From the NCBI GenBank assembly GCA_963556145.1, contig OY744463.1, forward strand, positions 5,642,001 to 5,706,000: 64,000 nt of DNA, given 5' to 3'. Shown here piece after piece: positions 27,333 to 52,883 of this stretch. The DNA is from Hygrocybe punicea. Lineage: Eukaryota; Basidiomycota; Agaricomycetes; Agaricales; Hygrophoraceae. The number at the start of each line of letters is the position of its first letter. The stretch's first letter is position 1. The notes beneath the pieces are model-generated. The model had not been told where the DNA came from. It was given only the letters and a program-made list of their open reading frames with translations, and did no database searches. Both the position numbers and the translations under genes were made by a program.

Positions 27333-28510
27333 TGGGCCAGTGCTACGCATGGTATGAACGAGTTCTTTTTTCCCCCTTCCGACTTCCATGATGAAGTGAG
27401 CAATAAGATTAAGTTACATAAAGCATTTTACATATAGTATGAGACATATAGCATATATTGTATATTGCAAATTGTTCTAATGAGTCCACCTCACACCTCA
27501 GCAACATAAAAAGTAGACAAAATAAAACTGCCTAGTGAGTCTTCAGTCTTCATCAACCTCCTCACTTACTGTTATGTCTGCTGTGCTGTATCATCTTGTA
27601 ATAGTCTCAGCCATAAAAGAAATGTTCAAGGAGCAACAGGTCAACTGCCAAACATAACCATCTCCTAAATAGTATAATAACAATTGACTTATATTTTCTC
27701 AACCCTACTTCTCCATGACCTTGAATGCTGTACAACAGATGAGTCATCAATATGAAGACTACTGTACTTGTTAAGTGGGCTAATATTGCACATAGCATAA
27801 ACAAGTCTGTTTTCTTTCATTTTATTTGTACGATTGTTACTCACATTAATAAGTGATTAATATATAATTAACATATAAGATAATGTGCGATATCACATTG
27901 AATTGTATGTTTGAAGTAAAAATAATAGTGGATAATCAGAAATAAGCTCATTTCTGCTTATATGGCTGATATTTCCATATATAGTAATAGTGGTCACATG
28001 TGACTGTGACTCATGTGATCAGCTCAAAATTTAGGATATATAGTGTAAAATTGCCTTATATAGTTAGACTGGTCACATGTGACTGTCACCATTGCGATCA
28101 GTAAAAAATTTGCTATACAATATCAGAAATTGCCTTATATGGTTAGAGTGGTCACATGTGACTGTCACACCTTGCCCGAAATGGTTATCTTAGTCAGCAG
28201 TTCAAATTTCAGCTGATTCTGAGAAGAAATGAAGTCAGTATGAATATTTTGAATATAATTAGAAGGTAGTTTGTATTTTCTGAGACAACCCATATTTGGA
28301 TGCTTATGTAAGCTTGTCCACACATGGCCCCAACTGCATCTTATTTTCCAGTATTAGAAGTAGAATCATATCTCTTGCACAAAAAAATTCTGTCTATAGG
28401 TGATCAACTTTATTAATTAATCAATCAATTAATTAATTAATTAATTACGAACCCTCACTGAACCAGGTCTGATAAAGAACGAGTCTTTTAATAAATTAAA
28501 AGAACTCGTA
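27324..28510 (-). mobile_element. Short Helitron2-like copy inserted in the helicase of its coding relative
   Basis: 1187 bases with both family-1 ends: the right-end tip (ACAAG on the minus strand) at 27324 and the left-end TACGAG at 28510. Helicase coding stops two codons after 27323 and resumes at 28515 (TQREIWKVRHAATDNFPGKL). On the minus strand the site reads GCTTTT|TGATTTGG, so the insertion is between T and T. No gene inside. The centre holds a second, degenerate copy of the right-end sequence (about 27770-27830). It belongs to the same family as the copies at 17767-18974 and 13072-16697. Confidence 0.88.
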
Positions 28511-28514
28511 AAAA

Positions 28515-30308
28515 GCTATACATCAATCCAGTGACATAGACTGTGATACACAAAGAGAGATATGGAAAGTGCGACATGCTGCAACTGACAATTTTCCTGG
28601 AAAACTCTCATTGTGTCTTGGTATGCCTGTCATGCTTCGCAACAATGATGCCACTGAGCTCTGCATTACAAAAGGACAAGAGGGATTTGTTGTTGGCTGG
28701 CAGTCAATGAAAGCAAGTCATGGCAGAAGAGTACTTGACACCTTGTTTGTTGAACTAGACAAACCTCCAAAGCTGGTGCAGATTCCAGGACTTCCTGACA
28801 ATGTGGTGCCCATTGTAAAAAACACCAAGACAATTCAGTGTGTATTTCCAAATGACCTGAAGGAATCCATTGAGAGACAACGAGTCTGGGTGCTTCCTAA
28901 CTTTGCAATGACTGCTCATGCTGCTCAAGGAAAAACACGTCCATTCAATGTTGTGCATTTAAACAGTTGCTTCAACCATATGTCATATTATTCTTCATTG
29001 TCTAGAAGTGCTTCTGCTGCTGGAACTGTAATCATTCAAGGCTTTGACACTAAAGTGATCACTAGAGGTTGTTCTGGATATCTTAGACAAGAATTTAGAG
29101 AACTAGAATTGCTTGATGAGATTACCAGGCTCAGATATGAAGGTGCTTTACCTGACCACATTGATGCTGGTACACGCTCTGTTATGCTTCAAAACTTTCA
29201 GCAATGGAAGGGAATTCACTATGTTCCAGCCAAAACTGATAATGCTCTTAAATGGTCACCAACTGATCCATTGCTATTGGCTTGTACAGTCCCTGATAGC
29301 CCATGGCAATTGGTTGAAAAAGGCAAAGGAAAACAGAAAGCAGGTGTAATTGCAACTTCATTTGTCCCAGCAAAAGGCTCAGTTGCTATTGGTTCAACCC
29401 AAAAACATTCACTGGACACAAATAATGAACCAGTAGCTAAAAGGCCTCGGATCACCAAAGACCATGTCAACCAAGGATCCACAAGCAAGCAACAGGTCAT
29501 TAACTCTCCAGCTGGACTGATCTGGGATAGAAATGACTACAGCTGTGCATATGACTCATTGTTGGTCATTCTGTTCAATCTGTGGAAAGAGAATCATGCA
29601 GAGTGGTCCACAGTATTCAGAAGCATGAATGATCATTTGACCACATTGTCTCATGGTTTTCCACAGGTGTTGCACAAAAATGTGGCATTTGAACAGCTAA
29701 GAGATCACCTTAGAACTACACTGCATAACATGAATCCTACAGACTTTCCTAGAGGCATTGTGGGCATCAGTGTTGCAAATCTGGCTATGGAGTTGTTTAA
29801 AGTCAATAACATTGTAGCCTCTTCTCAACATGAATGTTCTCAATGTGACTTTGCAGAAGAACCCATTGATGACAGACTAGGCTATGTGTTACATGCTGAT
29901 GACACCATTAAACAGTCTACCATGAAGTGGATTGATACCTTGTCACAGAAAACCAATAGAAGATGTCCTGATTGCAACAGCAGAATGAAACAACTTGTAT
30001 TTTATAATGAAGCACCACACATTCTTGTTCTAGAGTATCCATTCAAAAACATTGAAACCAGTCATAGACTAGAATTTGTTTCAGAGACTGACACAAAGAC
30101 ATTAGCACTTAGAGGCATTGTATATCATGGTCAATATCATTTCACATCACGTATTATTACTCCACAGAAACAAGTATGGTATCATGATGGAATGATTACA
30201 GGCAACTCTTGTTCCAGAGAGACTGACCTTACACAACTTTCAGACCATGATATCAGACACTGTAGAAATAGAAACCTAGTACTAGCTATTTATGCTCAGA
30301 GCCTTTGA
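28515..30308 (+). pseudogene. Helitron helicase C-terminal part fused to a ubiquitin-protease-like domain
   Basis: This is the end of the same protein, separated by the inserted element and so probably not made. The first 200 residues continue the PIF1/RecD helicase (FPGKLSLCLGMPVM, CITKGQEGFVVGW, MTAHAAQGKT, LSRSASAAGTVIIQGFD). After a polar linker, residues 315-579 look like a C19-type cysteine protease. DYSCAYDSLLVIL matches the Cys box with Cys 326; two CxxC pairs (CSQCDF and CPDCNS) match the zinc finger often found inside such domains; GQYHFTSRI...WYHDGM matches the His box with His 524 and Asp 540 (numbering from 28569). The stop is at 30306-30308. A helicase joined to a deubiquitinase-like domain would allow removal of ubiquitin from replication proteins during transposition, but that is inference. 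Confidence 0.78.
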
Positions 30309-35126: not shown

Positions 35127-35795
35127 TCATAATGGTTGGCCCAGGATATATCCTGACTCAATAAGCGTAGACCATCTCAGTTGAGCCAGGATATATCCTG
35201 AGAAATTCAGCCTGAACCATGTCAGTTGGGCCAGGATATATCCTGGGAACATCAGCCTGAACCATCCCAGTTGGGCCAGGATATATCCTGAGAAAATCAG
35301 CCTAGACCATCCCAGTTGGGTCAGGATATATCCTGAGAAAATCAGCCTGAACCATGTCAGTTGGACCAGGATATATCCTGAGAACCTCAGCCTAGACCAT
35401 GTCAGTTGGGCCAGGATATATCCTGAGAAAATCAGCCTAGACCATGTCAGTTGGGTTAGGATATATCCTGATAGCATCAGCCTGAACCATGTCAGTTGGG
35501 TCAGGATATATCCTGATAGCATCAGCCTGAACCATGTCAGTTGGGCCAGGATATAATCAGCCTGAACCATGTCAGTTGGACAAGGATATATCCTGAGAAC
35601 CTCAGCCTAGACCATGTCAGTTGGGCCAGGATATATCCTGAGAAAATCAGCCTGAACCATGTTGGTTGGGTTAGGATATATCCTGAGAAAATCAGCCTGA
35701 ACCATGTCAGTTGGGCCAGGATATATCCTGAGAACCTCAGCCTAGACCATGTCAGTTGGGCCAGGATATATCTCAGCCTGATTCAGCTATCCCCA
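35127..35795. repeat. 45-bp minisatellite, about 15 units
   Basis: Unit: CAGTTGGGCCAGGATATATC, then CTGAGAAAATCAGCCTGAAC, then CATGT. AGGATATATCCT inside the unit is a perfect dyad. The period of 45 is a multiple of three, so the array is open in several frames (35127-35570 minus and 35541-35990 plus); these are not genes. Confidence 0.9.
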
Positions 35796-35897
35796 AGTCA
35801 GTTGGGTGATCTCATTTTTAGGCATCCCATCTCAGTTGGTAATATCTTGCTGAATGCCCTGCAAAGTTCGTCTACTCATACAAAATCCTTCCACTTT

Positions 35898-37667
35898 TTA
35901 GTCAGGGCCTTCCCCTCGTACTTGCCCTCGTACATCTTCAATCGTCATCTTTTTCATGCCCAAAAGTTGCCTCAGTTTGGTGTCATCTAGGTCAGCAAAC
36001 CGCGCCCAGGGGTCCTCGGGTGTCTTTTCAAAGGTTGGCATCCTTTGCAATTCCAGGCTCTTCTGAATGACGGCGGTGATCGACTTGGTGCCTTGCTCAT
36101 ACTGTCAGATCAACAAAGACAAAAGGGCAACCCAAATACCTGGACCAACGCTGGCGTCCAAAATTTTGACGTCAAGTAAAGAATCAAGAACAAAACCAAC
36201 CCATTTAGCATTACCAACCGGTCGGAGAGTGCATGGTCTGCCTTTTTATGCTTGTTGATGGCCTGCTTGGTCTGGGAAGCGGTGAGTACTGAACATGTAT
36301 GTGGCGTGCTTTGATGCTCACCGGTTTCTCCCAGATGCATATGTCGAAACAATTTTCCGATGAACCCGAGGCAATGAGATGGCGCTCAGGAGAAGAGACG
36401 GCCTAAATCCAATACTGAGACTTAGTCGACCTCTTGTTTGTTTACGTACCTCGACTGTCTGAACCAATACTTGACCTGAATATCTAAATTCAACGCCATC
36501 CCCATATTTTGGAAAGTGGACAAACTCACCTCTGTCGTGATGCAAGGTTTGGACCACTCCTTCCGAGTTTGTGTTGAAAACGTAGACACCACCGTGATCG
36601 CTTCCGCATACAACCGCACTGGCTTGCTCTGCGAAAACCCCTTTCTTGACGTATCTTCGAGTGACTGGTACGCTGAAGGATCGCACAGGAGAAGTCTGAG
36701 TAATGTTGTATAGATCAAATCCAGTTGTCAAGTTGTCGATGAGAAGGAATTTCTCCGATGGGCAGATGCTGGCATTCCCTCTACGAAAACCACCTCAGTT
36801 CCACGGACTTCTTTCCATCAAATAACTCACATGCCCGACTTCAACACCTTGGACCACTTCTTTATGGAAGTCTCCGCATCTCGACAGGAACTGGCTGCAT
36901 GGAAATTAGCAACATGCTGTGGCTGGTATGTGTTGACTCATGCGTTGACTCACATTTCTCCTGACTCCAAACTGAACACCAAAAGGCTCTGATAGCCACC
37001 CACGAAGTGGATAGCACGAGGAATGGTCATGTCTAGCAAGTGCTTATTCCATATGCTCACCAGAGTGCCTTTGTTTTCGTAAGTATTCTTTCGAAGGCAC
37101 CTCTTCAAATTCTCAACTCACCGTTCTTCTCCAGGCAATAAATATGAACCTGGCCGTAGTGACTTGATCCTGCCAGCCAGCTGCGTGTTGGATCAAACGC
37201 CAGGGCCTCAACGCTGTCGCTAACGGCAAACGTGCAAGTGGTTGATAACTCCACGAACTTGCCCTGGCCATCATCAGCGCCGCTATTGAATGAAACAAGG
37301 CGCAGACTCACCCCGAGCCTGCTTTGGCGATATACTGACACCATTCCTCTCCCAGTTCCGAAGCAAAGTGTTTCGCCCACGACTCCAGCTTCGGAGGCTA
37401 GCCACTTTACACAGGTGATTTGCCCCCACTTTCCGTTGTCATGAATCACCTGAACACACTTGTATTTCTCCAAGGTCCAAATGCGAACCGTTTCGTCATC
37501 GCCTACGTCACACGCCGTCAGCGTCGTCGTCCCAAGTCGCCAGTCTCCTTACCTCCGCTTGCAAGTTGCTCGCCATCACGTGCAAAGGCAAAGCAGTTGA
37601 TGGCTGCGGTGTGGCCAGCAAGCCGTCGAGCTAGTCGATATTGCTGTCTGGAAGTCAGGCCAGGCAT
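35898..37667 (-). CDS. WD40-repeat protein with C-terminal membrane segment
   Basis: A spliced gene of unknown function. ATG at 37665-37667; exon 1 reads LAGHTAAINCFAFARDGEQL, a WD-repeat start, and joins across a 50-bp intron (37503-37552) to DDETVRIWTLEKYKC. Further repeat blades are visible: WGQITCVKWL, VEALAFDPTRSWLAGSSHYG, VSIWNKHLLDMTI, FLLIDNLTTGFDLYN, ASAVVCGSDHGGVYVFN and HLIASGSSENCFDICIW. Near the C-terminus a hydrophobic segment (LVLFLILYLTSKF, about 36190) could anchor it in a membrane, followed by PEDPWARFADLDDTKLRQLL and a stop at 35898-35900. At least six introns of about 50 bp are needed. I know this family as a repeated gene in agaricomycetes near transposons; no role is established. 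Confidence 0.7.
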
Positions 37668-38051
37668 GAACTTGGGGGTTCAACCCGACGTACATCTTTC
37701 GGCACAAAAATATGGTCCCACATTTGTCGAATGCTTGATGGCATGGATGACATGTGAATAACACAGGAAAATTTTCACAGGTATGATGCTAAGGCTCAGT
37801 ATTATGTACTCAAATATATAATTGTGTGCACCATCCTTTTGTGAAGACTTCGTATTCCGTGTAATTGTGACGTCACGTGGGCATGCTTATGAGATGATGC
37901 GACAATAATAAGGACAAAGGACAAGGGGCACTCTATTAGAGGGACAAGAGTCGTGCATTGTATACGGAAGAGACTCGAAGGGAACAAGGACCACAAAATA
38001 AAAGGACCACGAATAATAATAAATACGGCTACATGAAAGCCATCAGAAATA

Positions 38052-38850
38052 ATGGAGACTGCTGCTTTTATTCGCCAACACCTGCCACTTATCACCGGAC
38101 GCATCATATTCACCACTCAGGAACTTCCTGACCCCCCCATGATTACCCCACAGATCAATTTTGACGAGGAAGAACGAGACATGAACTCTTGGACAAACGA
38201 CCGCGAAGAGAGTGAACGCAGTGATGAAACCATGTCGGAACTATCCGCTCTAGAAAGCGAGGAGGAAACCATTGGCAGTAGCAAAATTCCTAAGCCACCA
38301 GGTGAGGCGGGACGCCTGGGCAGCGGTGGTTACAACTTGAAGGACATACTTGGATGGCCCAAAACAGAATTTGAGAAAGTGCAGGTGACACAAACATCAG
38401 CCAATAACAAAGGGTGTGGTAATTGACCTCAAGTTATAGAAATATGTCCGTTCCTGAGCCAATGAGAAGCTTGACCGAGGCATCAGCTTTGCATGTCAAA
38501 AAGATCATGCAATATGCGCCATTTGTTGCCAAGTAAGCAAATGTGCTGCCTATGCCCGCCGAGCTGCTCACCAGTCACATAGACAGCCAAGAGACATCCA
38601 ATTGTGGACCAATACATCGACCATTGGCCAGTCAGGTCAATGTTGAAGCTCCACCTGAAATATACCTCAGAAAGCGCTTGGCGCGCAAAGGAGAAGGCCA
38701 TAACAAGGAAGGTGGAGGAAGCAGTGGGACAGGCAGTCGCCGCCAGGAAGGGAGCTCCAAGAAAGAAAGGGGCCGTGCCGGAGAAAAAAGGGCATGACGA
38801 TGAGGAGGATGAGGAAGATGAGGAGGACGAGGATGAGGATGCGGAGTAGT
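38052..38850 (+). CDS. Unnamed agaricomycete protein with acidic tail
   Basis: Exon-like blocks: 38052 to about 38380 (GSGGYNLKDILGWPKTEFEK), about 38440-38535 (MRSLTEASALHVKKIMQYAP) and about 38590-38850 (DQYIDHWPVRSMLKLHLKYT, then a basic stretch and the tail EEDEEDEEDEDEDAE, stop TAG). The GGYNL..LGW and WP....LKLHLKYTSE stretches are familiar from unnamed multicopy basidiomycete genes. The exact splice sites between blocks 1 and 2 do not give a clean frame, so it may be damaged. The acidic tail suggests a nuclear or chromatin-associated protein, but no domain is recognised. Confidence 0.5.
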
Positions 38851-38874
38851 GATAGCAAGCAAATAGAACGCATG

Positions 38875-38930
38875 AGGAATGGAGCCAACACCGTGTCTCT
38901 GGGCAACCCATAAGACGTCGATGAAGGGTG
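38875..38930. repeat. Right-terminus-like CACTA subterminal sequence
   Basis: GTGTCTCTGGGCAACCCATA followed by AGACGTCGATGAA resembles 44545-44640 (CGTCTCTGGACAACCC and GGGAACCCATAAGACGCTGA). It lies about 500 bases before the left-terminus-like repeats at 39500 and may mark the end of a preceding unit. Confidence 0.4.
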
Positions 38931-39499
38931 GTGAGGAGACGCACAGTCACCAGATGGCTGTGTACAGAGGGAGTGAAAGACCGCTGCCAGATGTGGTGAG
39001 TATGGGAAGCAAGTAATAACTCATCTTGAGTGTGCTTCCACAGACGCGCTATGCCATCTCCGTGTCCCCATCCCCCATCCTTGTCCCTCCCCAAGGAAAC
39101 ACCGTGGCCCAGCCTTGTCACTCTCATCACTCGCGCTCTGAGAGCTCCTCGGGTGACCCTGCTGGCGGGTACATTCACTGCTCTCTGCATGCACTGCACT
39201 GTGGCCAGCGTGCAGCACACGCTCGAGGCGGGTGCGCAGAAGCTGTTCATGGGGGGTAAGTGCGGGGATGAGCGACATTGAGCGTGGGGGGCTCGTTGCA
39301 TGTGCATTGTATTGCACACTGGAAAGCACTTATTTACATACATGTATAGCTGCTATTGGTTCATGAAAACAAAGACTTCAAAAACAAAGTTATTAAAAAA
39401 AGTTATTGATCACTAAGTACTCGATTGTGGATGTATGAGTGTGTTTGTCCATGTGTGGCCAAATTGTCACGTCGCGTTGTCACATTTCTCTCCCTCTCA

Positions 39500-39600
39500 C
39501 TCATGTGTGTTTTTGGGTTCCCCAGACACGCTCTCTAGTCCTCCTCTTGCTACGTGTTTTTGGGCTCCCAGACATGCTTTCTCTCCTCTTCGCTGCGTGT
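39500..39600. repeat. Left-terminus-like dyad repeats before the TET gene
   Basis: Copies of the imperfect dyad CGTGT..TTGGG(T/C)TCCC..ACACG occur near 39505 and 39556, with a third partial copy near 39590. The same motif is present four times at 46499-46730 and once inverted at 44512-44537. Clusters of such motifs next to element ends are typical of CACTA transposons. Confidence 0.6.
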
Positions 39601-39768
39601 TCTGGTTCAGCCCTCTCCTGCCTTCCTCGCGCAGCCTTCGCACTTCATTCCCAGCCACCTCGTCGCTTTCTCATCAGGTCCTCCAGTCATTTTGTCGCCG
39701 AATTTCCCATTCTCCGGCCCCGGTAAGCCTCATTTGTGACCAGTGTCTGAACACCCGCTGTGCCTCCC

Positions 39769-39806
39769 AGGAATCAACCCTGGGTCCGAGAGGACCAGTG
39801 GGCGTT
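39769..39806. promoter_or_regulatory. Conserved 38-bp element upstream of the TET gene
   Basis: AGGAATCAACCCTGGGTCCG and the next 18 bases match 46804-46841 with few differences (AGGAATCAACCCTGGGGCCG). Both copies lie 60-90 bases before an ATG and just inside a cluster of dyad repeats. Function unknown: leader, promoter or transposase-binding site. Confidence 0.55.
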
Positions 39807-39865
39807 AAAGCACACGTCCGTTCAAAGCCGAAGGCTCGTTTTCTACTCATTCCATCTGCTTTTAG

Positions 39866-41382
39866 ATGATCTGGTTCCCCAAAGCTCGACAGGTGAGCAA
39901 CCCATTTTTTTTTCGGAAGCTCACTGATGCTGTGGGCGCAGACATGCTCAGGCAAACTTTTCTCTCCCTATGGCGTCTCCCCCCTCCAATGTCCGGGATC
40001 TTTGGATTTCGGACCGCTCCTGGAAGCCGCTTTTTCAAGAGAAAATGAAGAAACAGAGGAGGAAGAGCTGACTGAGAATGAGGAGGCGCCAGATATGGCG
40101 AGGCAAACCCCCATTCCAGAAGCACCTTCAGCAAAACGCGCTCGCGGGAATGACCCTCCTACGCCAGAAAAACTCACTCGGCAACACGCAAAACACCGCC
40201 ACCAGCGAGAGGCAGCCCGGCAGCTCCACGGGCACTTGCCGCGAGCCAAAACCATCAAAGCACACATGCAGCCTGCCACTCCACTCTTCACCTCACTGGA
40301 AACAGAGGGCCTTCCCGCCACTTCCTGTGGCTACCAAGCTATTCCGCAGAAGTTTTCGGGTGCTCGCAAACCCTACACTTTGCTGGAGTTGTTGGGCATT
40401 GGGTTTCTGCTGGTGGCTTGGGATGGCTAGTGAGCCTTTCATCCCTGTGCAGGGCTGTAGGAGCTGACCACTTCTGAAAGTGAATCGAGGCCCATTTATG
40501 ACCTCCAGAAAAGAATAATTGCCTGTCTTGTTGGGCAACCCCGTGATCCAACATTTGCAGCTGCTGTGGAGGCCAGCTATCAATTCTTCACACACCTGGC
40601 AGACCAGGCTCAGCTAAAGCCCAATTTACACTCGCGTGGACTTTTCCCCGTCCTCAACGTGGGGATTACCCACAACAAGGGCACCAAGATGCCCATTAGG
40701 TTGAACAACGGTGCATACAATGCCTTGGCCAAGAGCCTGTTGGGCAACCCAGACATCCAGCGGCTTGCCGCCTTCGCCAGCGGTAAGTTTTTATCCACGC
40801 TTCTAGAAAATGGCCTCATGGCCTGGTTCTGTAGCATCTTTCGCTCTGTGGGCCCCCAAGATATACAATTATTACCGAAACCATTTGGAGTCACTCTACG
40901 CCAAGATGCCCCATCTTCGCCGAAACTTTCAACACAGCATCTTTCCCAGCGCCGCATTCAATTTTGGTCCAAACGTCTGGACTTTCAAGCACCAGGATAA
41001 CATGAACTGCCCATTTGGCTGGTGTGCCATACAGGCGCTTGGCCACTTTGACCCACGAGCTGGAGGCCACCTCATTCTTTGGGACCTCAAGTTGGTCATT
41101 GAATTCCCTCCCGGAGCCCTCATCCTGATCCCCTCTGCCACCCTCACCCATTCAAACATCCCGGTACAGAAAGGTGATACTCGTGTTTCATTCACGCAGT
41201 ATTGTGCAGGTGGCCTGCTTCGCTACGTGGACAACAGTTTCCGAACGGAAGCCAAATTGGCTGAAGAGGATCCTGCTGCATTTGCAGAGGTGCTTGAAAA
41301 GAAGAAAACCCGGTGGAAAATGGGGCTTGGGCTTTTCAGCACCCTGGAAGGTTTGCTGACCCGAGTAGAAGAGCAAAAGTAG
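39866..41382 (+). CDS. TET/JBP-family Fe(II)/2-oxoglutarate dioxygenase
   Basis: Four exons join cleanly: 39866-39892, 39942-40429, 40481-40782 and 40835-41382. Introns of 49-52 bp all have GT..AG ends, and the product is 454 residues. The N-terminal half is basic and acidic low-complexity, then LPATSCGYQAIPQKF and LLGIGFLLVAWDG, a pre-catalytic pattern of fungal TET proteins. Catalytic motifs: HQD (His 325, Asp 327; the HxD iron ligands), then GGHLILWDLKLVIEFPPGAL, then LTHSNIPV with the distal iron ligand His 378, and TRVSFTQY with Arg 389 for 2-oxoglutarate. It should oxidise 5-methylcytosine in DNA. Length and motif order equal the family norm, so it looks functional. It sits between transposon-like ends, and agaricomycete TET genes are known to spread with DNA transposons. 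Confidence 0.9.
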
Positions 41383-41615
41383 CTGGTTTTTGTAATGCAA
41401 TTTGATAACAACTTAGACACTGCCTTGTTTCCACGTGGTACTGAGAAACTATTTGAAACTTTTGACTAGAACGCAACCTTCTGGCCTGCTCCGCCATGCT
41501 ACCCATCCTGAACACCAGCTTCTTTGGGAACCGGAAGGGCGTCTTTTGCTGAACATGTTCCACAAACCTGAAGGCCTTGGTTTGATATGAGTGGGTGCGT
41601 CATAGATGGGATGAT

Positions 41616-41945
41616 TCACCTTTTTACAGCAAAATCTGCTAAGGCCACATCTCTGCCGTGCATGTTGACCACTGCCTGAGTTTTGCCAACTCGCATGACC
41701 ACAAGATCACCCTTCCATGGATAGCCAGACGCCATGTATTTGACGACGTCATTGATTGGTAGAAGTAGGTGGTTCTTACAAAATACATGGAACACATGGG
41801 AGCGGTTTGCCTCGCGAATGATGACTGGGCAGTCGTGGATGAATGGCTGGGTTCGTAAATGGGCTATTGCCCCCTCAAGCAGAGGAAATTGGTTAATGCC
41901 GCATTCATGCATCTGGATTTTGGTGAAGACAGGACGGCGTGACAT
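41616..41945 (-). CDS. Unnamed small basidiomycete protein (109 residues)
   Basis: A single-exon frame starting MSRRPVFTKIQMHECGINQF and ending GDLVVMRVGKTQAVVNM...ALADFAVKR. The GD(L/I)VVMRVG...LADFAVK ending is familiar from multicopy agaricomycete genes that lie in transposon-rich regions, with no assigned function. It has no cysteines in a zinc pattern and no membrane segment. It stands convergent to the TET gene, 233 bases from its stop. The frame is uninterrupted. Confidence 0.6.
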   Translation of the reverse strand: MSRRPVFTKIQMHECGINQFPLLEGAIAHLRTQPFIHDCPVIIREANRSHVFHVFCKNHLLLPINDVVKYMASGYPWKGDLVVMRVGKTQAVVNMHGRDVALADFAVKR

Positions 41946-42207
41946 TGAGGCATACAGACGCGTGCAGATTTGCAGGTAGTTATCCTATACTTGTTGAGCC
42001 TTTGCCAACTTAACAGCCACATGGAGACGTACTTTACTGGTAGGTGATGTGGGCATGCAGAGTGAAGGCATTTCGTGGGCAGAATGGATGGCCACCCGAT
42101 GGGCCCTATATGCTGGCGCTGACAATTGCATTATTATTATTTGGATGAGCACACTTACGTCTTGAAGAAATTTATCACAATTAGGATGCAATTGTCAACT
42201 CCTTTGC

Positions 42208-44403
42208 ATGAGTGCACGAATTCATCACAATTACTATACAGGTACAATAAAAGATTATTCTAATTTGTGTCGTCCATCAACAATAAAGTCAGCGGTAGAA
42301 AAAGAGAATGGGAGGATCTCCCTTTCTCCAAAGATGTTTGGTATGTTGAGGTTTTTGACGGCTGCACCAGCTGGGGAAACAGTCCAGGTGCGAATGAAAT
42401 CCCATAAGCTGACGGATGCCACCCGAAGTCTAATGCGTCCAATCTCACAGCAGCCACTGCCACTTAGCCATGAGGCTGCGCCAACTGATTCAGTACAAAT
42501 GGATCCCGTCAACGAGGCATGTGATGGGACCACCGTTCAAGAAGGCGGAAGATTACAATGCCCTAGCCCAGCAGCGAGGGAACCTGGTAATAGCAGCCGA
42601 CAGGGTTCAGTGCAGAAGGTTCTGCTTGTCGAACAAGAGAGTTTACAAACGAAGACTTTGTTGGTAGAGAACGCCGCAACAATTGAAAAGCTACATCTCA
42701 AGGTAAGCTGTCATGCCCTGTATCAAAAATAGTTCCTTACCAACTAAACCAGCTAGAAGAAAGTCGCAGCACCCAACACATCCTGGCATTTGTTCAGTCA
42801 CTCGAAGAGTGAGTGAGACTCGCTGAGGCAGCGGCTCAACTCGCTGAAAAGCGAGCACAGCAAGCTGAACAGCTGCTTAGGAATCTTCAGCAGACAAGGA
42901 ATGCCGGCGACGGCGAGGATGTCATGATGCAAGAGTCCACAGAAAGTGAAAGCAAGGAGCAGGAGAAGCAAGCCCAGGATGAGTCAAACGACGACAGTGG
43001 ACTGGTAAGAAAAGCGTTTTGAAACCTGCCCACACGTAATTAATTGACTACCTAGGAAACTCAGAACCCTGCAACCCAAAATGTGCCACCGCCGATGCGG
43101 TTCTCAAGACCACGGGCAGGAGCAGGACCAACCCTCAAGGCCACATTCAAGCCGAAGCCGCCCTTGCAACCTTCAGCTTCACCTGAGCCAAACGGGTCGT
43201 CATCAAAACAGGCAGGTGGCTCCAACTCTTCATGTTAATCACTGCTGATAGACAAGCCGCTAGCCGGTAACATTGGAGGACAAGGTTGACTTGTTGCTTG
43301 CCAACTTAGACGAACTGAAGTTTGGGCAGCCTCAGCCAGGCCCTCAAAGGCCTCGAACAACCCGAAGATTGCCACCCCGCCGATTTAAGCCAGCACCGAT
43401 CAGGAACCACAGCCCCTCAAGGACTGGAAAACTGGTGAGTTGAAATGTGCTACAAGCGACGAAATGCCAAACCAGGCCTTGCAGAAAGAGGTCCGAGCCG
43501 CCATGAACAAACTGTTTGGCATTGAACACGACAAGGATGCATTACGCATCCCTCCTCCTCCACAGGACGACTTCGACTGGTATGAAGACAACGGGGGGGG
43601 GACCAGGACCCTCTTTATACCCCATGTCGCCTGACTGGAGCAATCTCCATGGCGAATGGAACTACCGATTATATGAATTGTTCGTTGCTTATCTGGAAGC
43701 GCCAACCCCCGATGGCGGTGGACACACCTTGACCGATGAAACTTACGTCGAAATCCATGAGATGTTCTTTGGACGCTTGTATCGCCTCAAGCGAGAGATC
43801 CAGGCTGCTTCCCCCAAACCAGGCGAGAGAGGCCACCAAACCAGGGAATGACTTTCCCAGGCCAAGAAGGCCGCATTAGAGCGGCAACGACCAAACACAA
43901 GATGAAAGCAGGTGAGCAAACCCTAGCAGTTGGTTAGGCCTACATCCCCACCACAACCACAGCTGTTTGACACCCGGCTCGAAATCACCCTGAGCAATAG
44001 GACGGCTCCCACTGGAGAAATTGATGTAGCCTGGAATAGCCTGTTCGAGGTCGTCGATTTACTTAATGCGGAGGGCATGAGCTCGGATGAAAGTGACGAT
44101 GACGACGACGGCAGGAGGATCTACACGATCAGAAAAAAGGCATGGCGCAACAAAGACATCACAAGATTCCTGAGGTTAGTTGATCGCGATTACAACACCA
44201 CCAATTGTTATGGTAACACCCAGGCTGGGAACCCTCCTCGCCGTCGCAGCATTCGCGGGGGAAAGGAGAGCAGGCGTGAGGCGCCACCTGGCCTGCCGTT
44301 GAATTTCTACGACCGTGACTGGTACGCAGAGCTGACAAATCGAGAGAAGAAAGAACTTCGAGCGAAGAAGGAGATTGAACTCCCGGAGATTGAGGGAGCG
44401 TAG
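42208..44403 (+). pseudogene. Unnamed multi-exon gene with coiled coil, interrupted
   Basis: Blocks in order: 42208-42702 (polar; ends LLVENAATIEKLHLK), about 42753-43009 (a heptad-like stretch LAEAAAQLAEKRAQQAEQLL), a proline-rich part about 43060-43430, 43440-43850 (MPNQALQKEVRAAMNKLFGI, then WYEDNGG and SPDWSNLHGEWNYRLYELF) and 43930-44403 (TGEIDVAWNSLFEVVDLLNA, an acidic patch, then LPLNFYDRDWYAEL, stop). The last block is typical of multicopy basidiomycete genes without known function. Damage: an in-frame TGA at 42810-42812, and a frame change in a run of nine G at 43592-43600, which could be a slippage or sequencing error. It lies in the same unit as the TET gene and in the same orientation. 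Confidence 0.55.
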
Positions 44404-44511
44404 TCCATTCTAGGGCCAATAGTCGTACAGCCAATGAACCACAGCACAGCAGTGAAATTTGAGGACCTGACGAACAATGCGAAGAGGAGCATGAGAGAAG
44501 CAAGAGCAGGG

Positions 44512-44640
44512 ATGTGTATGGGAGCCCAAAAACACACGGCCGACAACGAACGTCTCTGGACAACCCAAAAGATGAGGGAAATTGAGAGTACCAGCTCAGC
44601 GTCTCAGCAGGGAACCCATAAGACGCTGATGAACTTAGAA
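44512..44640. repeat. Right-terminus-like inverted dyad repeats
   Basis: TATGGGAGCCCAAAAACACAC (shifted by one base, 44513-44537) is the dyad of the left ends read on the other strand, followed by CGTCTCTGGACAACCC and GGGAACCCATAAGACGCTGA. With 39500-39600 it would frame a 5.1-kb unit carrying the TET gene. Confidence 0.55.
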
Positions 44641-44711
44641 GTCGCGCGATGTCCGACCTTGTTCGGATATATTTGTATTTATTTATTTGTATTTATTTGT
44701 GACTTATACAC

Positions 44712-46736
44712 TTATTCGTCCCATTGTTTCCCTTGTCTTCTCCAGCGGATGTGGGAATCCACTCTGCTCTGCCGAGAGGGCTGCGAGCTGGAGGTGCTGG
44801 GCGCTTTTGGAGCGCAGGCGTCAACCTTTGGGTGGACTGTTTCAACGGAGGGTTCTGGCGAGCCAAGTGACAAGTTCTGCAACATCGTTGCCAAATCTTG
44901 GGGGTCTGGGTCAGATTTGGACCAAAGCCGTCCGCCTTGTTGAGTAAATGCCCCAGAAACTTTGTCCACCAGCGTCATTGAAGCCATGTAGTGAGCAACG
45001 TCCGCGTCGCAGGCATCTATGGCGCGCCTTGAGGCATCGCGAGCAACAGCAGTGCGGTCTTGCAGCTGGTGGGACTTGAATGTGCGGCAGTCCACTGAAA
45101 TTCCTCGTGGAGAATTTGTTGCGCTGTCGAGCCCTCCCTTCGCGGCGCACCCAAAGGAGGTGCAGAAACAGGTCTGCATGAGCTGATGAGCCCAAGGTCG
45201 TCGTCTCTGCTCAGAAGAAAGACCCCGCGGTGAATGCTCGCAGATCACCGCAACCAATGCACAGTGAACCAGTCGACCACGGGGATAGCGGTGAGTGCGT
45301 GAGAATCTGACCCCTGGCGCCCAAAAGTCTAAGAAGTTGTCGATGAGTGGGGTCAGGTAGTGGTTGATGGCCGTGAGTGGTGGTTCCTGGGGGCCAGGAA
45401 TGATCCCCGCCAAAAACATGTTCTCGGGCTTGCAGCGTAATTCAGGGGGGAGGTTGAGGCAAACCAGGGATATGAGGCCAATGGAAGCCTTCTTTCCTGC
45501 CTGTTTATTGGTGTATGGGTTGAAGAAGTCAACGCAAAGACTAAATACATAGCGGCCTTCGTCGTCGCCACAGCTGAAATGCTGCTTATCAGGGCCTTGG
45601 AATTCGCGAAGGAAAGCGCCATCAAAAATGTCCTGCATGTCATCCGTGCTGCTGGCAGCATTTGTCTTCCAGGCGGAATCCATGCGTTCCTCAAACCCAG
45701 GTCGAGCTGTCAAACTGGCTACCCAGTCCTTGAAGTCAAAGGAAACAAAGGTTTTGATGGGCACCTGGATCTCCTCACCCATGATCACCTGGGGCTTGGT
45801 CAGGCGTTCCTTACAGCATGGGCCTCCACGAAACTCCCGGTGAGTGCAATGGTTGGGGTATTGGGCAATAGGGGAGTCATCTTTGAAGGTGGGTTTGTAC
45901 GTGCGGTGACATTTCTGGTTGGGGCAGACGGCATAGATGATGCTCTTGCCATCCAGATGAAACTGGTCGGCGGCTGAGCGACGATCAACAGGGAAGTCCG
46001 ACATGAGCTTTTGTTCTCGAGGCGATAGGTGGGGGGCAGTTCTCATCAGCGCGAGCTGGACAATGTATTGCAGCATGGAAAGCATGAAATGGCGTCCGCG
46101 ACGCCCGACATTCAGCACCACCTGGCAGGCGACCACTAAAAAGAGGGAAACTTGAAGGATGGGATCAACGTGCTGAAGGAAGGGCGTGAAGTGGTGATCT
46201 GTTTTCATTTCATTGCCCAACGCAGCGCCGTGTTGGGCTAATTTCCGTTTCCACTCCCGTTTTGCCTGGTCCAGCTGACACTGGACTTCATCCAGTCGCT
46301 CGCAGATGGATCTCTTGGTTTCTACCACCACGGCTTGCCTGCCTTTGACAGTATTGAGCCGATTTCGAAGGTCAGCGCAGGCTGAATGCAGTGAATTCAA
46401 AGGAGGAGGCAAAGACTCCCCAGAGTGATGTCGCAGTTCAGCCAGTGCTTGGGAGACTTTCTGAGCCAAGTCCACCACGGCTGCCTCAATTCCCGCCAGG
46501 TGTGTTCTTGGGCTCCCAGACACGCGCTCTCTCCCTTTCTCTCGTATCTGTGACTGGCGTGTTCTTGGGTTCCCAGACATGCGGCTTTTTCCTACCCCAG
46601 CACTTCCTCCTCCGCGCTCAGTTTTACCTTTGGTCTCCCCGTCTAGGCGTGTTCTCGGGCTCCCAGACACGCGTTCTTTCGTACCTCCGGCGTCTCCTCG
46701 TCTAGGCATGTTCTTGGGTTCCCAGACACGTGTCAT
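44712..46736 (-). pseudogene. CACTA Tnp2 transposase: central part followed by its N-terminal zinc part
   Basis: An open minus-strand frame of 674 codons. Codons 1-80 run through subterminal repeats (GSPRTR, GNPRTR) and are probably not the natural start. Next come a coiled coil (about 80-190), a hydrophobic stretch LQVSLFLVVACQVVLNVG, a zinc-like CPNQKCHRTY..HC..CC, and the Transposase_21 core (DMQDIFDGAFLREF, LNLPPELRCKPENMFLAGII and RGRLVHCALVAVIC). After VIC (about 45240) the family normally continues LPAARK..GFASHS; here the frame instead enters CFCTSFGCAAKG...FKSHQLQDR...VAHYMASMTLVDKVSG, which is the N-terminal region of the same family. The true continuation is on the plus strand at 47244. 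The order is therefore wrong and the gene cannot make a normal transposase. Confidence 0.78.
46499..46730. repeat. Four dyad repeats, left-terminus-like
   Basis: Copies of CGTGT..T(T/C)GGG(T/C)TCCCAGACACG lie at about 46499, 46557, 46647 and 46707. The cluster is followed at 46804 by the conserved AGGAATCAACCCTGGG element, the same order as in front of the TET gene. Confidence 0.65.
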
Positions 46737-46740
46737 TTCC

Positions 46741-47243
46741 TACCACTAGCACCGCGTAAGTCCTCCATTCCCTGCCGGCGCCTCACCACTCGCTGGGCCA
46801 CTCAGGAATCAACCCTGGGGCCGAGTGGACCAGCGAACGATAAGACACGGGCAGATTCTTTGCTGAGGGCCAATGCCTGAGCTCATGGGCTTCACCTCTA
46901 GACGACCTGGCCTCCCTGAGCACCTGGGGTTTAATCCCAACCTCCTCTTGCCAGCACACCTGCAGGACTTTGTGCGGAAATTTGTCATAGGCGATGACTT
47001 GAAGACGCAGGCCGCCACCAGTCAATGGGCCAGATCCATTCAGCCTTTTGGGGGCTTCTTCAGCTCACGGCTGCCTGGCGACAAGGAACAGCCTTTCTTG
47101 TTTTCACCCTTTGGGATGAAGGGCAACGTCGGTGCCTGGAGACAGTGAGTCTTGTAGTTCCCTTGGAGGAAGAAAGGACCTAACTTTCTCTTAACCCTCA
47201 GCAGATCAGCCTCCCGCCTCTCAAATGACTGCTTCCCCTCCTC
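46741..47243. other. Leader-like region between dyad repeats and Tnp2 C-part
   Basis: It contains the conserved 38-bp element (46804-46841) and a plus-strand frame 46873-47148 (91 codons, MPELMGFTSRRPGLPEHL...) without recognised motifs, which could be the first exon of whatever unit starts here. Nothing else is seen. Confidence 0.4.
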
Positions 47244-49146
47244 CCTGCGGCAAGAAAAGTTGGGGGGTTTGCTGCCCACTCTCACAATCACTTCTGTTCA
47301 ATCTGCCATTGTACTCGATCATCACATGGTTATGGAAATACAGATTATAATTCTTGGATCTAATGCTCCAATGCCGACTGCCAGGCTTGTGCTGACCAGT
47401 ACAACGATGCACGCAGTGAGGGGGCGAGACAAGCGCTCTTTGACACTTCTGGGGTCCGTTGGTCAGAATTACTCTGACTACCTTACTTTGACATGGCCCG
47501 CTGCGTGGTGGTCGATGGCATGCATAACCTCTTCTTGGGCTTGATCAAAGAGCATTTCAATGGGATTCTTGGCATTCATCTGAAAAAGGCAGAGGAATTG
47601 CCAGTGGTGCCCATTGAACTTTCTTCTGCTTGGAAGGAATTCTCCCCCAAGGAGCAGACTAGCGTCAAAAAGCTACAGAAATACCTCCAAGGCCCTATGG
47701 CAGCTGAACTGGCCAAGAACTGCTTGCAGATCATCAACAAGTTTAAGAGGTGCCATGTGCGTGCCCTCAAATTCATCTGTGCTGAGTTAAAGTGTCCAAT
47801 GGCGGCTCGTTTGGACTCACGTCGAAGGGCTTCAAAAAGTGACCGGGTTGATGCCATCCTTGCCTGGGTAAGTGGTCTTTCTGATCACCTGAACCACATG
47901 CCCACCCACCTTCACCCCACAGCGTCAAGCACAACCAGAAAAGCGAACAACTGGCACTGATACATCAACTGCCCACGGCCATGTAGTGACAATGGAGGAA
48001 ATGGAGGAGATTTGGTCGGACATCAGGAACATGGTGACGCCATCCTGGGCAAGTTCTGTTCCCCAGGACTTGGGCTCTTCAAAACATGGAAAGGTGAAGG
48101 CAGACCAATGGCGCATGCTGGGAATGACCTATTTGCCCATTTCACTTGTCCGCCTTTGGGCAAAAGTTCACGAGGGGAATGAACGAACAGAGCGATGTAG
48201 CAAGATTCTTTCTGTTTCCGTATCCCTTCTGTCTGTGGTCATCATTGCTGCCTCTCAAGTGACCTCCCACCACCGTGCCAACCTGTACCTTCAGCATATG
48301 CAGTCGTACCTCAATGGGGTCTGGGATTTGTTCCCAGAGTACCGTTTTCACCCAAATCATCACATGGCATTGCATTTACAAGAGTACCTGTTACTCTTTG
48401 GCCCCCTCCATGCATGGTGGACCTTTCCTTTTGAGAGAGTTATTGGTACGCTTCAGCGGATTTCTACCAGCAGCAAAATGGGTAAGCAGTGCTGCAGCAA
48501 CTTTTGCAAACGTACTTATATACTCCTAGGGGAATTAGAGCAGACGATGTCGAGGTCATATACTCGATCTGCAAACCTATGCGGCATCTTATGCAAATCA
48601 CACTGTCCACAAGCTCTGCAACATTGTCAAGCAATGTTTGAAAAGCTTTTGAGCCCCCAGGTCCGCGACACGCTCATCACCGACATGCTCAGTGAATCCA
48701 TGGGCTGGGATGTGGCCCACAATGAAGCAGTTACTTGGAATGAAAACACGGCTCATTCTATCCCAACAGGCCTCTGTCGTGCCCTGGCTACATCCCTGGG
48801 CTTTGACCCACCGCAGAAGGCACAGCTCCTCTCTCACCTGAATGTCCATGGCATCACTTATGCTGTGTCATCTAAACACAAAGGCAACTCTTGCATTCTT
48901 GTAGGGACAAAGGGGGCAAGCAATCCAGTTCCTGCTCGCATAGAATGTGTTGTGCAACTACCCACCCCAGAAGGAACTTCCACCCACATTGCCATCCGAC
49001 GTCTTAGGCCTGTGCACAACGTCCTTGATCCATTTAAACCCTTTCCTGTACTTCAAGCTCAAATGTGGGGCGTGCAACTGGCTGATCTGGAAATCATCTC
49101 AGTCGACCAAATTCGAGCCCATTTTGCCTATTTATTCTTGAAATGA
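47244..49146 (+). pseudogene. CACTA Tnp2 transposase, C-terminal half
   Basis: Plus-strand coding starts abruptly with LPAARKVGGFAAHSHNHFC (47244), which is the family's continuation after the VIC of the minus-strand piece. An intron of about 130 bp may lie near 47340, then QALFDTSGVRWSELLYLPYF, VDGMHNLFLGLIKEHF, a 55-60-bp intron (about 47870-47923), WRMLGMTYLPISLVRLW and the DUF4218-like C-terminus (HHMALHLQEYLLLFGPLHAW, FERVIGTLQRI). The final part ends VQLADLEIISVDQIRAHFAY and a stop at 49144-49146. The frame is otherwise open, so damage is limited to the rearrangement. The protein would cut and paste CACTA elements if joined to its N-terminal half. Confidence 0.78.
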
Positions 49147-50895
49147 GAAGAGCAGGACGTCACGGTTGTTATATCAATGTCTCGGGTAAGCCAGCATCAC
49201 CTGTCTTAAGTGGTGTGCTCTAATGCAAGTTCAGGAGTATTGAACAGCATTCTAACAGTATCGAAAAGCTAGCACTAGTAGTCGTCATTGAGGCGTCATA
49301 CATACACAAATATCATCTTCATGTCGCTCAAGTGTTGAATAAATGTCACTCAAGTGTTCACTAAGTGTGTGCTAAGTGTGTGATAAGCGACACACTTGAG
49401 TGTGCGAAGCATTTTGTGGTCTGCAAAATGTTTTATTTCAGAAAGATTTTGCAAAGGTGCAATCTTATTGTGAAATATGAAATATTGTGACATGCAAAAT
49501 CTGTCTGCAAAATTCTTCATTTGGTGACATTGAATTGATCATATTTAGACGCATTGCAAAATTGATTGAATTTGATACATTTTGCAACTATTTGGAGAGT
49601 CAAACAAGGTGTGGGAATAGTTTCACTTTTGTCTACATTTTCACCTAAAACAAAGCATTCATATTTTTAAAATTTTTCCACATTATAAATCCTTGCAATT
49701 TTTTTGGTTTAGATAGTATTTGATGGGTTATTATATGTGAAAATTTAAATGGATTTTGCATGGTTTAAAATCATATGCAAAACTTTAACAAGCTACCAAA
49801 GATTTTGCAATCATTTTGCATCACACAAAATAGTGCGGTGTCAGCAGTGAGTTCATGGCACTGGGCCAATTACAGACCTCAAGGATGGAAACCGACATCA
49901 AATCAGTGCTGGGCAAAGACTTTGCGGCGATTTCTGAGCGTCACGATCCCTTATTCAAACCCCACCCAACTTCTGAGCTCGAATTCAAACATCAACTTCC
50001 TTCTCAACCACAACCTCACGAAACCGCTTCGTCAACCACAACCTCCCTGTCCCCTCCACCATGTCTACACCTAGAGCAACAGACTCAGGGTCACCTCTTC
50101 TGCATTCCCACCCCTTCTGCTATTCACTGACCCTCCCTCTTCTAAGTGTGGCAAGATGACGCAGTCCGCCTTGTTTTGTTGCAGGGTGGCAATGGGTAGT
50201 GACTGCAGCAGGCAAGGAGAAGCTTTTTTCTATCTTAGAATGCTAGTAGTTTGTGGTGTGGTGTAGTGCCAGTCTGCTCATGAGCAGAATTGTGATATAT
50301 TTTGTGATTTTGCTACCATGAAATATTGACAAGAATATTTATTTATCTATTTATTTCCACCTGGCGCACCGTCTGCCCATGCGAAATCTGTGTTGGGTTG
50401 ATGCGAAATCTGTGTGGCTGATGCCCGTTGTCGGACAGAGGCTGCCCTTTTTTTGTTGAGGCATGGCAGAACCTGGCCCAATCCAGCCACTTGGGTTCCA
50501 TGGCTGAATCGGGATGACTGAGCAAGCAGCGGTGTAGGTCCCCAAACTTAACAAATTTGTTTTTTGAAATGTCATTAGTTTTGAAAAGCACCATAAAGAA
50601 CTCATAAAATTCACAGAAATTGTATTAGAAAATCATTTTAGAGGTCATAAATGTATAAATACAAAGTATCTAAGTGTTCTGTGCAGCAGGGACTGGGTTA
50701 CAGCAGGGGTGCCGAATAGAGGGGAGCGCGGAATCCCTGAGTATTTGCCCCAAATCAATTCTGCCCACAACACAACTATAGCACAGCCTCGGCAAATGTT
50801 TTTCGCACTCCGCTCGGGTTCCCCCGTGGTTCGAGCTCGACTTCGACTTACAGAAAAGCTCCAGAGACTGTGGGCTGGTCAGCAACACCCAGGAA
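49147..50895. other. Intergenic, TTTTGCAA-rich, with a shared repeat end
   Basis: From 49340 to 49850 the sequence is AT-rich with many TTTTGCAA words and a short array of CACTCAAGTGT/CACTTGAGTGT. Bases 49773-49849 match 60809-60892 in inverted orientation. The rest (49850-50890) has only short unsupported frames. The last 150 bases (pyrimidine-rich with short CT tracts) should hold the promoter and leader of the kinase gene. Confidence 0.5.
49773..49849 (-). repeat. Copy of a 77-84-bp repeat end (see 60809)
   Basis: Read on the minus strand it starts CACTGCTGACACCGCAC and continues to CATATG, matching 60809-60892 on the plus strand except for small indels. The matching sequence points away from the enclosed genes on both sides. 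Confidence 0.7.
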
Positions 50896-52883
50896 ATGTC
50901 TGATTCGCCACCCACTCAGCAGGGGTATAACCCTCTTTCCCGCGATGTTCATATGGATACGGCCAAAGGCCTGACGATGGCACTTCATGTTCCCGACGTT
51001 AGGATGGCCACTGCAAAGGGTTACATCGCTAATGATATAATAATGGAAACCGCGAAAGGTGGAACGACAATGAAACAAGGCGGATTAAAACTGCGGCAAA
51101 GGGGGCTGCTGGAGAATTCAGAAGTCAAGCGAAAGGCAACTGTCGCTCAGCTTTGTAAGTGAGTCCGTCAACCTTAACCCACTTCGCTACCGATCTCCCA
51201 ATACCTCCTCGCATCACTCCGCATTGGGATAATCTTCGATTTCTTGTCGATTTCCTTCCAAACTAATGCCTTCTTGGAAAAACCAACTTCAGATTTTCTC
51301 GATTATTATTTTCAGAGTTTAGGGTATCTCGCCTCACGGAAACAACGCCGTGCCAAATTTGATCAGGACACCTCTGCCCGTGACCTCAATGCATCTTCAT
51401 ATGCAGAAGAATTCAAATCCTACTGTGGCCGCGAAAGAGTTCTCCTTAGAAGACGTCGAACGAAGTTGCGAGTAGATCAATTCCACATCATTGCACAAGT
51501 CGGTCAAGGGGGTTATGGTGAAGTCTTCTTGGCAAGAAAGCAAGAAACGGGTGAGGTTTGCGCTTTAAAGCGGATGCAAAAACGAACACTATTCAAGATG
51601 GACGAGGTATCTATGTTTCTTATTTCCCTTATCCTTCAGTTTATTTTGCTGTCCGCAGGTTCGCCATGTTCTCGTCGAACGAGATATTCTCACTGCCACC
51701 AAGACACCCTGGCTCGTACGACTTCTTTACGCATTCCAAGATCCTCAGTATGTCTATCTCGCAATGGAATATGTTCCTGGGGGCGACTTTCGGACCTTGC
51801 TGAATAACTCAGGCGTCCTTAAGGAAGAGCATGCCCGATTTTACATTAGCGAAATGTTCGCTGCCGTCAACGAGCTTCATAAACTTGGTTACATCCATCG
51901 CGACCTCAAACCTGAGGTTGGAGTGAGATTATTATTTTACTAATCATTATCCTCACTTTCTTCGTTAGAACTTCTTGATTGACAGTATTGGTCACGTCAA
52001 ACTTACGGATTTTGGCTTGGCAACAGGAGCGCTCAATCCCAGGCGAATCGAATCTCTCAAATCCAAGGTTAGCCCTGACCTTGAGTTCCATGAGATAACA
52101 ACAACGAAATGACTCTTGTATCCCAGCTTGACAAAGTCAAAGATATTCAAATCATACATCGTTCAACCCTTGAACGTCGCTCGATTTATCGCTCGGTCCG
52201 TAACGAAGATCCCCGCTACGCAGACACAATTGTTGGTTCCCCAGATTATATGGCACCAGAGGTTCTGCGAGCAAAGCCCTACACATATTCCGTCGATTAC
52301 TGGTCCTTGGGCTGTATCCTTTTTGAATTTATAGCAGGCTTTCCTCCATTTAGTGGCGGTACGCCCGAAGAAACATGGACAAATCTAAAAAACTGGACGA
52401 AAGTTCTTCGACGACCAAAATACGATAAGCCTGAGGATCTCATATTCAATCTCACGGATGTTGCCTGGGATGCAGTCACTAAGTATGTGAAACATCATTT
52501 TTTCATCAATTACATATCAGTCTGACTCGATCAGGCTTATTGCACATGCAAGCATCCGCTTCTCCACCCTCACTCAGGTCACCAACCATCCCTTCTTCGA
52601 CCGCGTGGAATGGGACAATCTACGTGCAGTCTCGGCGCCTTTCGTCCCAGCATTAGATTCAGAAATCGACACAGGATATTATGACGATTTCACGTCTCTC
52701 GAGGACATGGCTAAATACGCCGAAGTGAAAGAGAAGCAGAGGAACGTTGACAGGGTAAAGGAAAAGGACGAGCCCTTCGGACGGGGTGTTTGGGTTGGAT
52801 TTACGTTTGGGAAAAATGGTCCAGGTACAAAGCCGAATCTGGCAAGTTATGAGGACAGTGGCACGATGACGACAATCTTTTGA
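50896..52883 (+). CDS. dbf2: NDR-class AGC protein kinase, Dbf2/Sid2 type
   Basis: Six exons join in frame: 50896-51154, 51293-51606, 51659-51916, 51969-52067, 52127-52482 and 52535-52883 (544 residues). KRKATVAQL joined to YFLDYYF is the Mob1-binding N-terminal region of Dbf2-like kinases. Kinase motifs: GQGGYGEVFLA (P-loop), CALKRM (Lys), HRDLKPENFLID (catalytic loop), LTDFGL, then the long NDR-type insert before DTIVGSPDYMAPEVL. The C-terminal WVGFTF is the hydrophobic motif with its phosphorylatable Thr. Such kinases act at the spindle pole and septum in the mitotic exit/septation network, activated by Mob1. The N-terminus carries three MxTAKG repeats. It looks intact and single-copy-like, unlike its neighbours. 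Confidence 0.93.

Follow-up and report, generated by a model that had tools for sequence, protein, structure and literature searches.

The window analysed here is a stretch of 64,000 nucleotides of the Hygrocybe punicea genome (C3:5642001-5706000 in an assembly of 92 Mb and 42 contigs, designated by C numbers). It contains a truncated CACTA/EnSpm transposon copy that encloses a gene for a TET/JBP-like dioxygenase. The features of this copy are as follows.

35862-49849, + strand: CACTA/EnSpm remnant; about 4 kb on the left, including the left terminal inverted repeat (TIR), is missing
36240-38800, - strand: WD40-repeat-like gene; beta-propeller matches under the curated cut-offs; present in TET-bearing and TET-less copies
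39485-39813, + strand: dyad module upstream of TET, composed of repeats; three modules per complete copy (two copies read)
39866-41382, + strand: TET/JBP-like dioxygenase gene; exons 39866-39892, 39942-40429, 40481-40782 and 40835-41382
41508-42073, - strand: small gene in the TET block with conservation in the C8 element; its longest open stretch spans 41616-41984; no Pfam match
42600-44410, + strand: second neighbour gene of the TET block; longer open stretches without Pfam match
44483-44747, + strand: dyad module, part 1; in other copies this module lies before Tnp2
44748-46501, - strand: 5' half of Tnp2 (PF02992), rearranged; segments 44748-45237 and 45238-46501 swapped and turned
46502-47239, + strand: part 2 of the dyad module, upstream of Tnp2
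47240-49146, + strand: 3' half of Tnp2
49348-49849, - strand: right TIR of 502 bp, ending in CAGTG; tip at 49826-49849

The remnant is colinear at about 95-97% with the copy at C35:3850787-3873125, save for the rearranged Tnp2 and for insertions in the C35 copy. Within the window nothing matches the leftmost 4 kb of the C35 copy, and the nearest forward TIR tip in the leftward direction (up to 3 mismatches) lies 4 Mb away. The window copy cannot move on its own. Its Tnp2 matches PF02992 with an E value of 9.1e-11, in agreement with the initial annotation, which had placed a transposase of the CACTA group next to the inverted dyad copies. The 5' half of Tnp2 (44748-47239) is rearranged relative to the other copies that have these segments, which two overlapping inversions would explain, the alternative being a misassembly. 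One break of this rearrangement adjoins a dyad. The truncated left edge of the element adjoins a tandem repeat (35127-35780, unit about 60 bp by eye), and a second TIR of the same family begins in forward orientation at 60809-60897 and runs out of the window.

Alignment of the window with the 96% copy on C35 and with the less similar copies (about 70-80%) on C8 and C36 resulted in a common right edge at 49849-49853, which holds CACTGCTGACACCGCACTATTTTG in reverse. The genome has 57 occurrences of this sequence at 3 mismatches or fewer, compared with 0 for the reversed pattern. The element ends are inverted repeats of 502 bp that start with CACTGCTGACACC, giving termini of the CAC..GTG type (CACTG..CAGTG) in the C35 and C8 copies, where the TIRs are 98.2% and 96.6% alike. 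The complete C35 copy measures 22.3 kb, including a 3.5-kb insertion among others, and is flanked by ATT/ATT; the complete copy at C8:4972133-4990761 measures 18.6 kb with its TET block and is flanked by CAT/CAT; a complete copy on C36 that has no TET block measures 12.5 kb. TIR pairs were chosen from the 57 tips as a + tip followed by a - tip at most 80 kb apart, which left 33 tips unpaired, including the two in the window. Target duplications of 3 bp match in 8 of the 12 examined pairs, five of which surround TET. Among the ten pairs beyond C35 and C8, six match over 3 bp (AAT, GTA, GTT, GCT, AGT, and AAA), and the remaining four (two pairs on C41, C40:2669192-2717743, and C2:4272028-4337948) were rejected on mismatching duplications. 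The outer flanks of the C2:4272028/C2:4337948 pair are exact reverse complements across 12 bases. Certain TET-bearing pairs (C36 and C7) are 70-80 kb apart because of further insertions. A 0.8-kb element at C1:5534600-5535413 shares the TIR tips of the family, is flanked by an AGT target duplication, and is probably a non-autonomous derivative. The transposase of the C8 copy, read from an open frame of 826 amino acids, is of the Tnp2 type (PF02992, E 5.8e-13; Plavaka model, 0.023). The carrier is a CACTA/EnSpm DNA transposon with TIRs, 3-bp target duplications, and Tnp2, and the earlier proposal that TET is cargo of a CACTA-type element holds with these true ends.

The dyads that had been noted near 39500-39600, and as inverted copies in 44512-44640, are present at 39511 and 39558 (+ strand) and, inverted, at 44520, 44559, and 44610, with more at 46.5-46.75 kb. 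Allowing 1 mismatch at most, the 92-Mb genome has 119 occurrences of the dyad sequence TTGGGNTCCCAGACACG against none of the reversed pattern, so the dyads are not a product of chance. As candidate TIRs they were rejected: the insertion junctions lie at TIRs kilobases outside and the dyads are internal, contrary to the initial annotation, which took them as the bounds of the element. Under the refuting condition set in that annotation, by which the ends have to fall on insertion junctions, the dyads fail as ends, and the cargo reading stands with the TIRs as ends. The related idea that they package the TET gene survives in part, as dyad modules frame the TET block, which is flipped or absent in some copies, and fails as a description of the element ends.

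The TET exons, spliced at GT..AG introns, encode 454 residues followed by a stop, with His325, Asp327, His378, and Arg389 located in the protein; the gene model first proposed, with four exons and these residues, is exact in all details. The exon breaks near residues 171-173 and 273 are also found in relatives, at a synonymous distance of about 1.4. A family alignment of 36 rows has His325 and Asp327 in 36/36, His378 in 34 (2 gaps), and Arg389 in 34/36, which is the HxD .. H .. R 2OG-Fe(II) active site of TET/JBP dioxygenases. The Pfam Tet_JBP model scores the window protein at E 0.15 (11.7 bits, cut-off 34.9) and at E values up to 1 matches 11 of the 36 family members, the best at 4.8e-6. It was rejected as a sole test, missing the window gene yet giving 122 matches elsewhere in the genome. 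A search of PDB sequences with the family profile gave chance hits only, and a comparison of folds was therefore required. The model used represents a 49%-identical relative in place of the spliced window protein, and its nearest structures are CcTet, NgTET1, and TET2, with CcTet the closest solved fold. CMD1 is also among the fold matches, and overall the modelled fold is nearer TET enzymes than other 2OG oxygenases. Judged on this relative, the window gene is assigned by predicted fold to the TET/JBP group. The database relatives with the best scores come from Agaricales, among them Tricholomella, Mycena, and Hypsizygus. In the putative substrate pocket, Asn330 and Cys336 are present in 36/36 rows, their equivalence to known positions being taken from an ungapped profile alignment over that stretch to seven CcTet-like proteins of the same genome. 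By this alignment Asn330 would be a TET2-like residue. The place of Cys336 is occupied by Asp, Thr, or Ser in the characterised enzymes, according to PMC11040006. Oxidation of 5mC is the predicted activity of the window protein.

Comparison of exon 4 of the window gene with the copies on C8, C41, C36, and C1 resulted in dN/dS values of 0.073, 0.072, 0.078, and 0.097, respectively, at dS 1.36-1.54. Exon 4 has thus been under purifying selection between the subfamilies (dN/dS 0.07-0.10), indicating that the enzyme remained functional during the divergence of the element lineages. A Tnp2 segment has a dN/dS of 0.153, and between subfamilies dN is 0.11 for TET and 0.10 for the transposase segment. 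Recent pairs of TET copies show dN/dS values of 0.37-1.1, and of the 16 close TET copies all but that of the window have a stop or a frameshift in exons 2-4.

Many elements carry a TET block, made up of the TET/JBP dioxygenase gene and two neighbour genes. The gene order in the two complete copies is the left gene (minus strand), the WD40-like gene, TET, the two further genes of the TET block, and Tnp2. The WD40-like gene is a backbone gene of the element. Four TET-less elements (C36:4520074-4532564, C2:2300743-2314742, C36 at 5.97 Mb, and C40 at 5.08 Mb) contain both Tnp2 and the WD40 gene, and neither TET nor its downstream gene was found in them among the matches listed. Of these four, the first two alone yielded both TIRs, each with target duplications. 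Compared with the TET-bearing C8 copy in the region of Tnp2, three pieces of these siblings are 93-98% alike; a fourth, from C36 at 5.97 Mb, stays colinear with C8 across one dyad repeat and on into Tnp2 (97.8%). Of 12 tabulated elements, seven have the TET block oriented as in C8 (C8, C35, C39, C2, C36, C41, and C6) and five have it turned (C3, C41 at 2.48 Mb, C7, C1, and C34). Orientation was scored by TET or its downstream gene, with strands from the listed matches; the table leaves out the window copy, the ambiguous C40 at 4.7 Mb, and loci lacking the left gene or Tnp2. Turned blocks occur in both subfamilies, and the WD40 gene is turned too in three of the five TET-turned elements and in 2/4 TET-less elements. 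The presence of TET is probably ancestral, as both subfamilies carry it.

TET loci were counted from 52 match rows, leaving out six second pieces and lesser fragments. The second neighbour gene lies downstream of TET at 13/16 close TET loci, and once (C1 at 5.03 Mb) it occurs with no TET match. A Tnp2 of the element's own lineage lies within 15 kb of 9 of the 16 close loci compared with 0.6% of random places, among the Tnp2 matches listed; three close loci (C1 at 2.55 Mb, C34 at 3.36 Mb, and C40 at 5.6 Mb) have neither the downstream gene nor Tnp2 nearby. Thirty further TET relatives, about 50% identical and mostly with open frames, are located on C36, C6, C8, C40, and other contigs. As 28 of these 30 are more than 15 kb from any Tnp2 among the matches listed, this group probably has another carrier.

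In the two complete copies dyad modules stand before the left gene, TET, and Tnp2, and the same dyads are present in TET-less elements too. The C8 copy has its TET and Tnp2 modules within direct repeats of 866/876 bp that are 95.5% identical and 5.97 kb apart; in the C35 copy short direct repeats alone were found around the TET block, and no long ones. Relative to the TET and Tnp2 modules the left one is inverted, over 399 bp (96%) in C8 and over 653 bp (94.9%) in C35. The shared position before these three genes suggests co-regulation by one dimeric binder. The repetition of the modules may also allow recombination that flips or drops cassettes, and such recombination would be the simplest account of the flips and losses of the TET block.

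Across 6286 columns of the alignment between the window and C35, 159 of 227 differences are CpG transitions. This corresponds to 159 of 491 CpG sites (32%), compared with 0.4-2% of other C sites (6/950 CpA, 16/771 CpC, and 3/772 CpT). The rates of CpG change are alike in ACG, CCG, GCG, and TCG (0.27-0.37), so that RIP-like hypermutation of TCG is unsupported across the four NCG contexts. In a Tnp2 segment of ten copies, 8-38% of CpG sites are changed versus 0.1-0.4% of other sites, and of 33 stops found in the TET exons of other copies, 16 are at CGA positions of the window. On a plain reading of these sequences, the CpG decay would reflect CpG methylation followed by deamination, and the element would be a target of the very mark its enzyme is predicted to oxidise. 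The decay suggests that 5mC substrate is present and says nothing for its removal. The ranges of CpG decay overlap between five TET-bearing copies (0.10-0.20) and four TET-less ones (0.09-0.38), nine of the ten copies being assigned to either group. Elsewhere in the window, a Helitron (Helitron_like_N, PIF1) at 20695-30308 has a CpG observed/expected ratio of 0.11, compared with 1.06 in a kinase gene at 51178-52883.

Plant CACTA/EnSpm elements have, as here, a Tnp2-type transposase, CACT-type ends, and 3-bp target duplications. We know of no dioxygenase in them, and the present element differs from them in its long 502-bp TIRs and internal dyad modules. EnSpm elements bearing a TET gene are known from Agaricus bisporus, where the enzyme is of the PE type (HxE), and from Puccinia, where it is of the PU type, as stated in the main text of Kojima 2025 (PMC12730594), where EnSpm is described with CAC..GTG ends and 3-bp target duplications and escape from methylation (anti-silencing) is proposed. 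On the strength of that text, the view in the initial annotation that TET in a CACTA element is a different association is superseded. The Agaricus bisporus element is, like ours, an agaricomycete EnSpm with a TET gene inside, but its HxE motif as described there contrasts with HxD in 36/36 rows here, and the main text is silent on dyad modules, flips, or a removable cassette in it. The Puccinia elements, too, are EnSpm with TET inside and have 3-bp target duplications (PMC12730594); their hosts are rust fungi, and their enzyme is described as PU type. AG-type TET, given in the same main text from Kyakuja and Zisupton only, and CcTet share with our enzyme the character of a transposon-encoded HxD TET of mushrooms (PMC12730594 and PMC11040006). 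Unlike CcTet (Gly331, Asp337), the family described here has Asn330 and Cys336 in 36/36 rows and thus lacks the AG-type/CcTet residues. In the open-licence literature, PMC12730594 was the sole treatment of TET in EnSpm found, and no prior print of such an HxD EnSpm cassette was found there, supplements aside. As far as searched, an HxD enzyme that is not of the CcTet type, with a TET2-like Asn330, in a flippable and removable EnSpm cassette is new.

We consider it probable that the window holds a decayed CACTA/EnSpm copy whose TET cargo counters silencing of the element by CpG methylation. The host would methylate CpG in the element and thereby silence it; the dioxygenase, made in trans, would oxidise 5mC on element copies, and this would favour their expression and movement. 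The observed basis of this reading comprises the termini, the target duplications, the gene content, the TET-type fold of a relative, purifying selection, CpG decay, the flips and losses, and the dyad repeats bordering the TET block. A point against it is that TET-less siblings spread too, two having both TIRs as well as target duplications, so that an element does not strictly require the enzyme in cis. Further findings count against it: the sole TET copy with clean exons 2-4 is the immobile window remnant, CpG decay of TET-bearing copies is not clearly below that of TET-less ones, Cys336 stands in place of the Asp/Thr/Ser of characterised enzymes, and long direct repeats surround the TET block in C8, not in C35.

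More tentatively, and possible rather than probable, the element may be a shufflon-like CACTA engaged in an arms race of helpers and cheaters. Dyad modules would flip or drop cassettes, among them one with a TET2-like 5mC oxidase and two helper genes; lineages under CpG methylation would retain this anti-silencing cassette, and TET-less siblings would use the enzyme in trans from a dwindling set of intact copies, whose genes CpG deamination destroys.

It seems unlikely that the TET block is a passenger, captured once and riding along, its conservation reflecting an older function and the block now decaying and being lost. Most TET copies are broken, TET-less siblings also spread, and recent copies have dN/dS values of 0.37-1.1, all in its favour, but the dN/dS of 0.07-0.10 between two TET-carrying subfamilies, with protein change at about the slow pace of the transposase segment, argues that the enzyme was long useful. 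We give similarly little weight to a dioxygenase acting on 6mA, thymine, or a 5mC hypermodification that marks the element's own DNA, in place of silencing 5mC. The pocket is unlike that of CcTet (Asn330/Cys336 for Gly331/Asp337) and CMD1 is among the fold matches; however, in characterised enzymes 6mA is blocked and 5mC stabilised by a side chain (Asn or Asp) at this pocket place, according to PMC11040006, and the pattern of CpG decay argues for 5mC in the element. That a small dyad-bounded unit (about 39.5-44.6 kb) carries TET and is moved by Tnp2, as initially annotated, is very improbable, for although dyads lie on either side of the gene and the TET block of C8 has dyad-bearing repeats at both borders, these run in direct and not in inverted orientation, the TIRs and target duplications are far outside, and the same dyads occur in TET-less elements.

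For the anti-silencing reading, the genome offers sibling copies with and without the TET block, in either orientation, whose methylation footprint can be read from CpG decay, making protection of the carriers by a transposon-borne TET directly testable through methylation, expression, and movement. The family adds a group of mushroom TET enzymes whose pocket would resemble animal TET at one key position, and not CcTet. Should the shufflon-like reading be true, an arms race of helper and cheater elements would be taking place within one genome.
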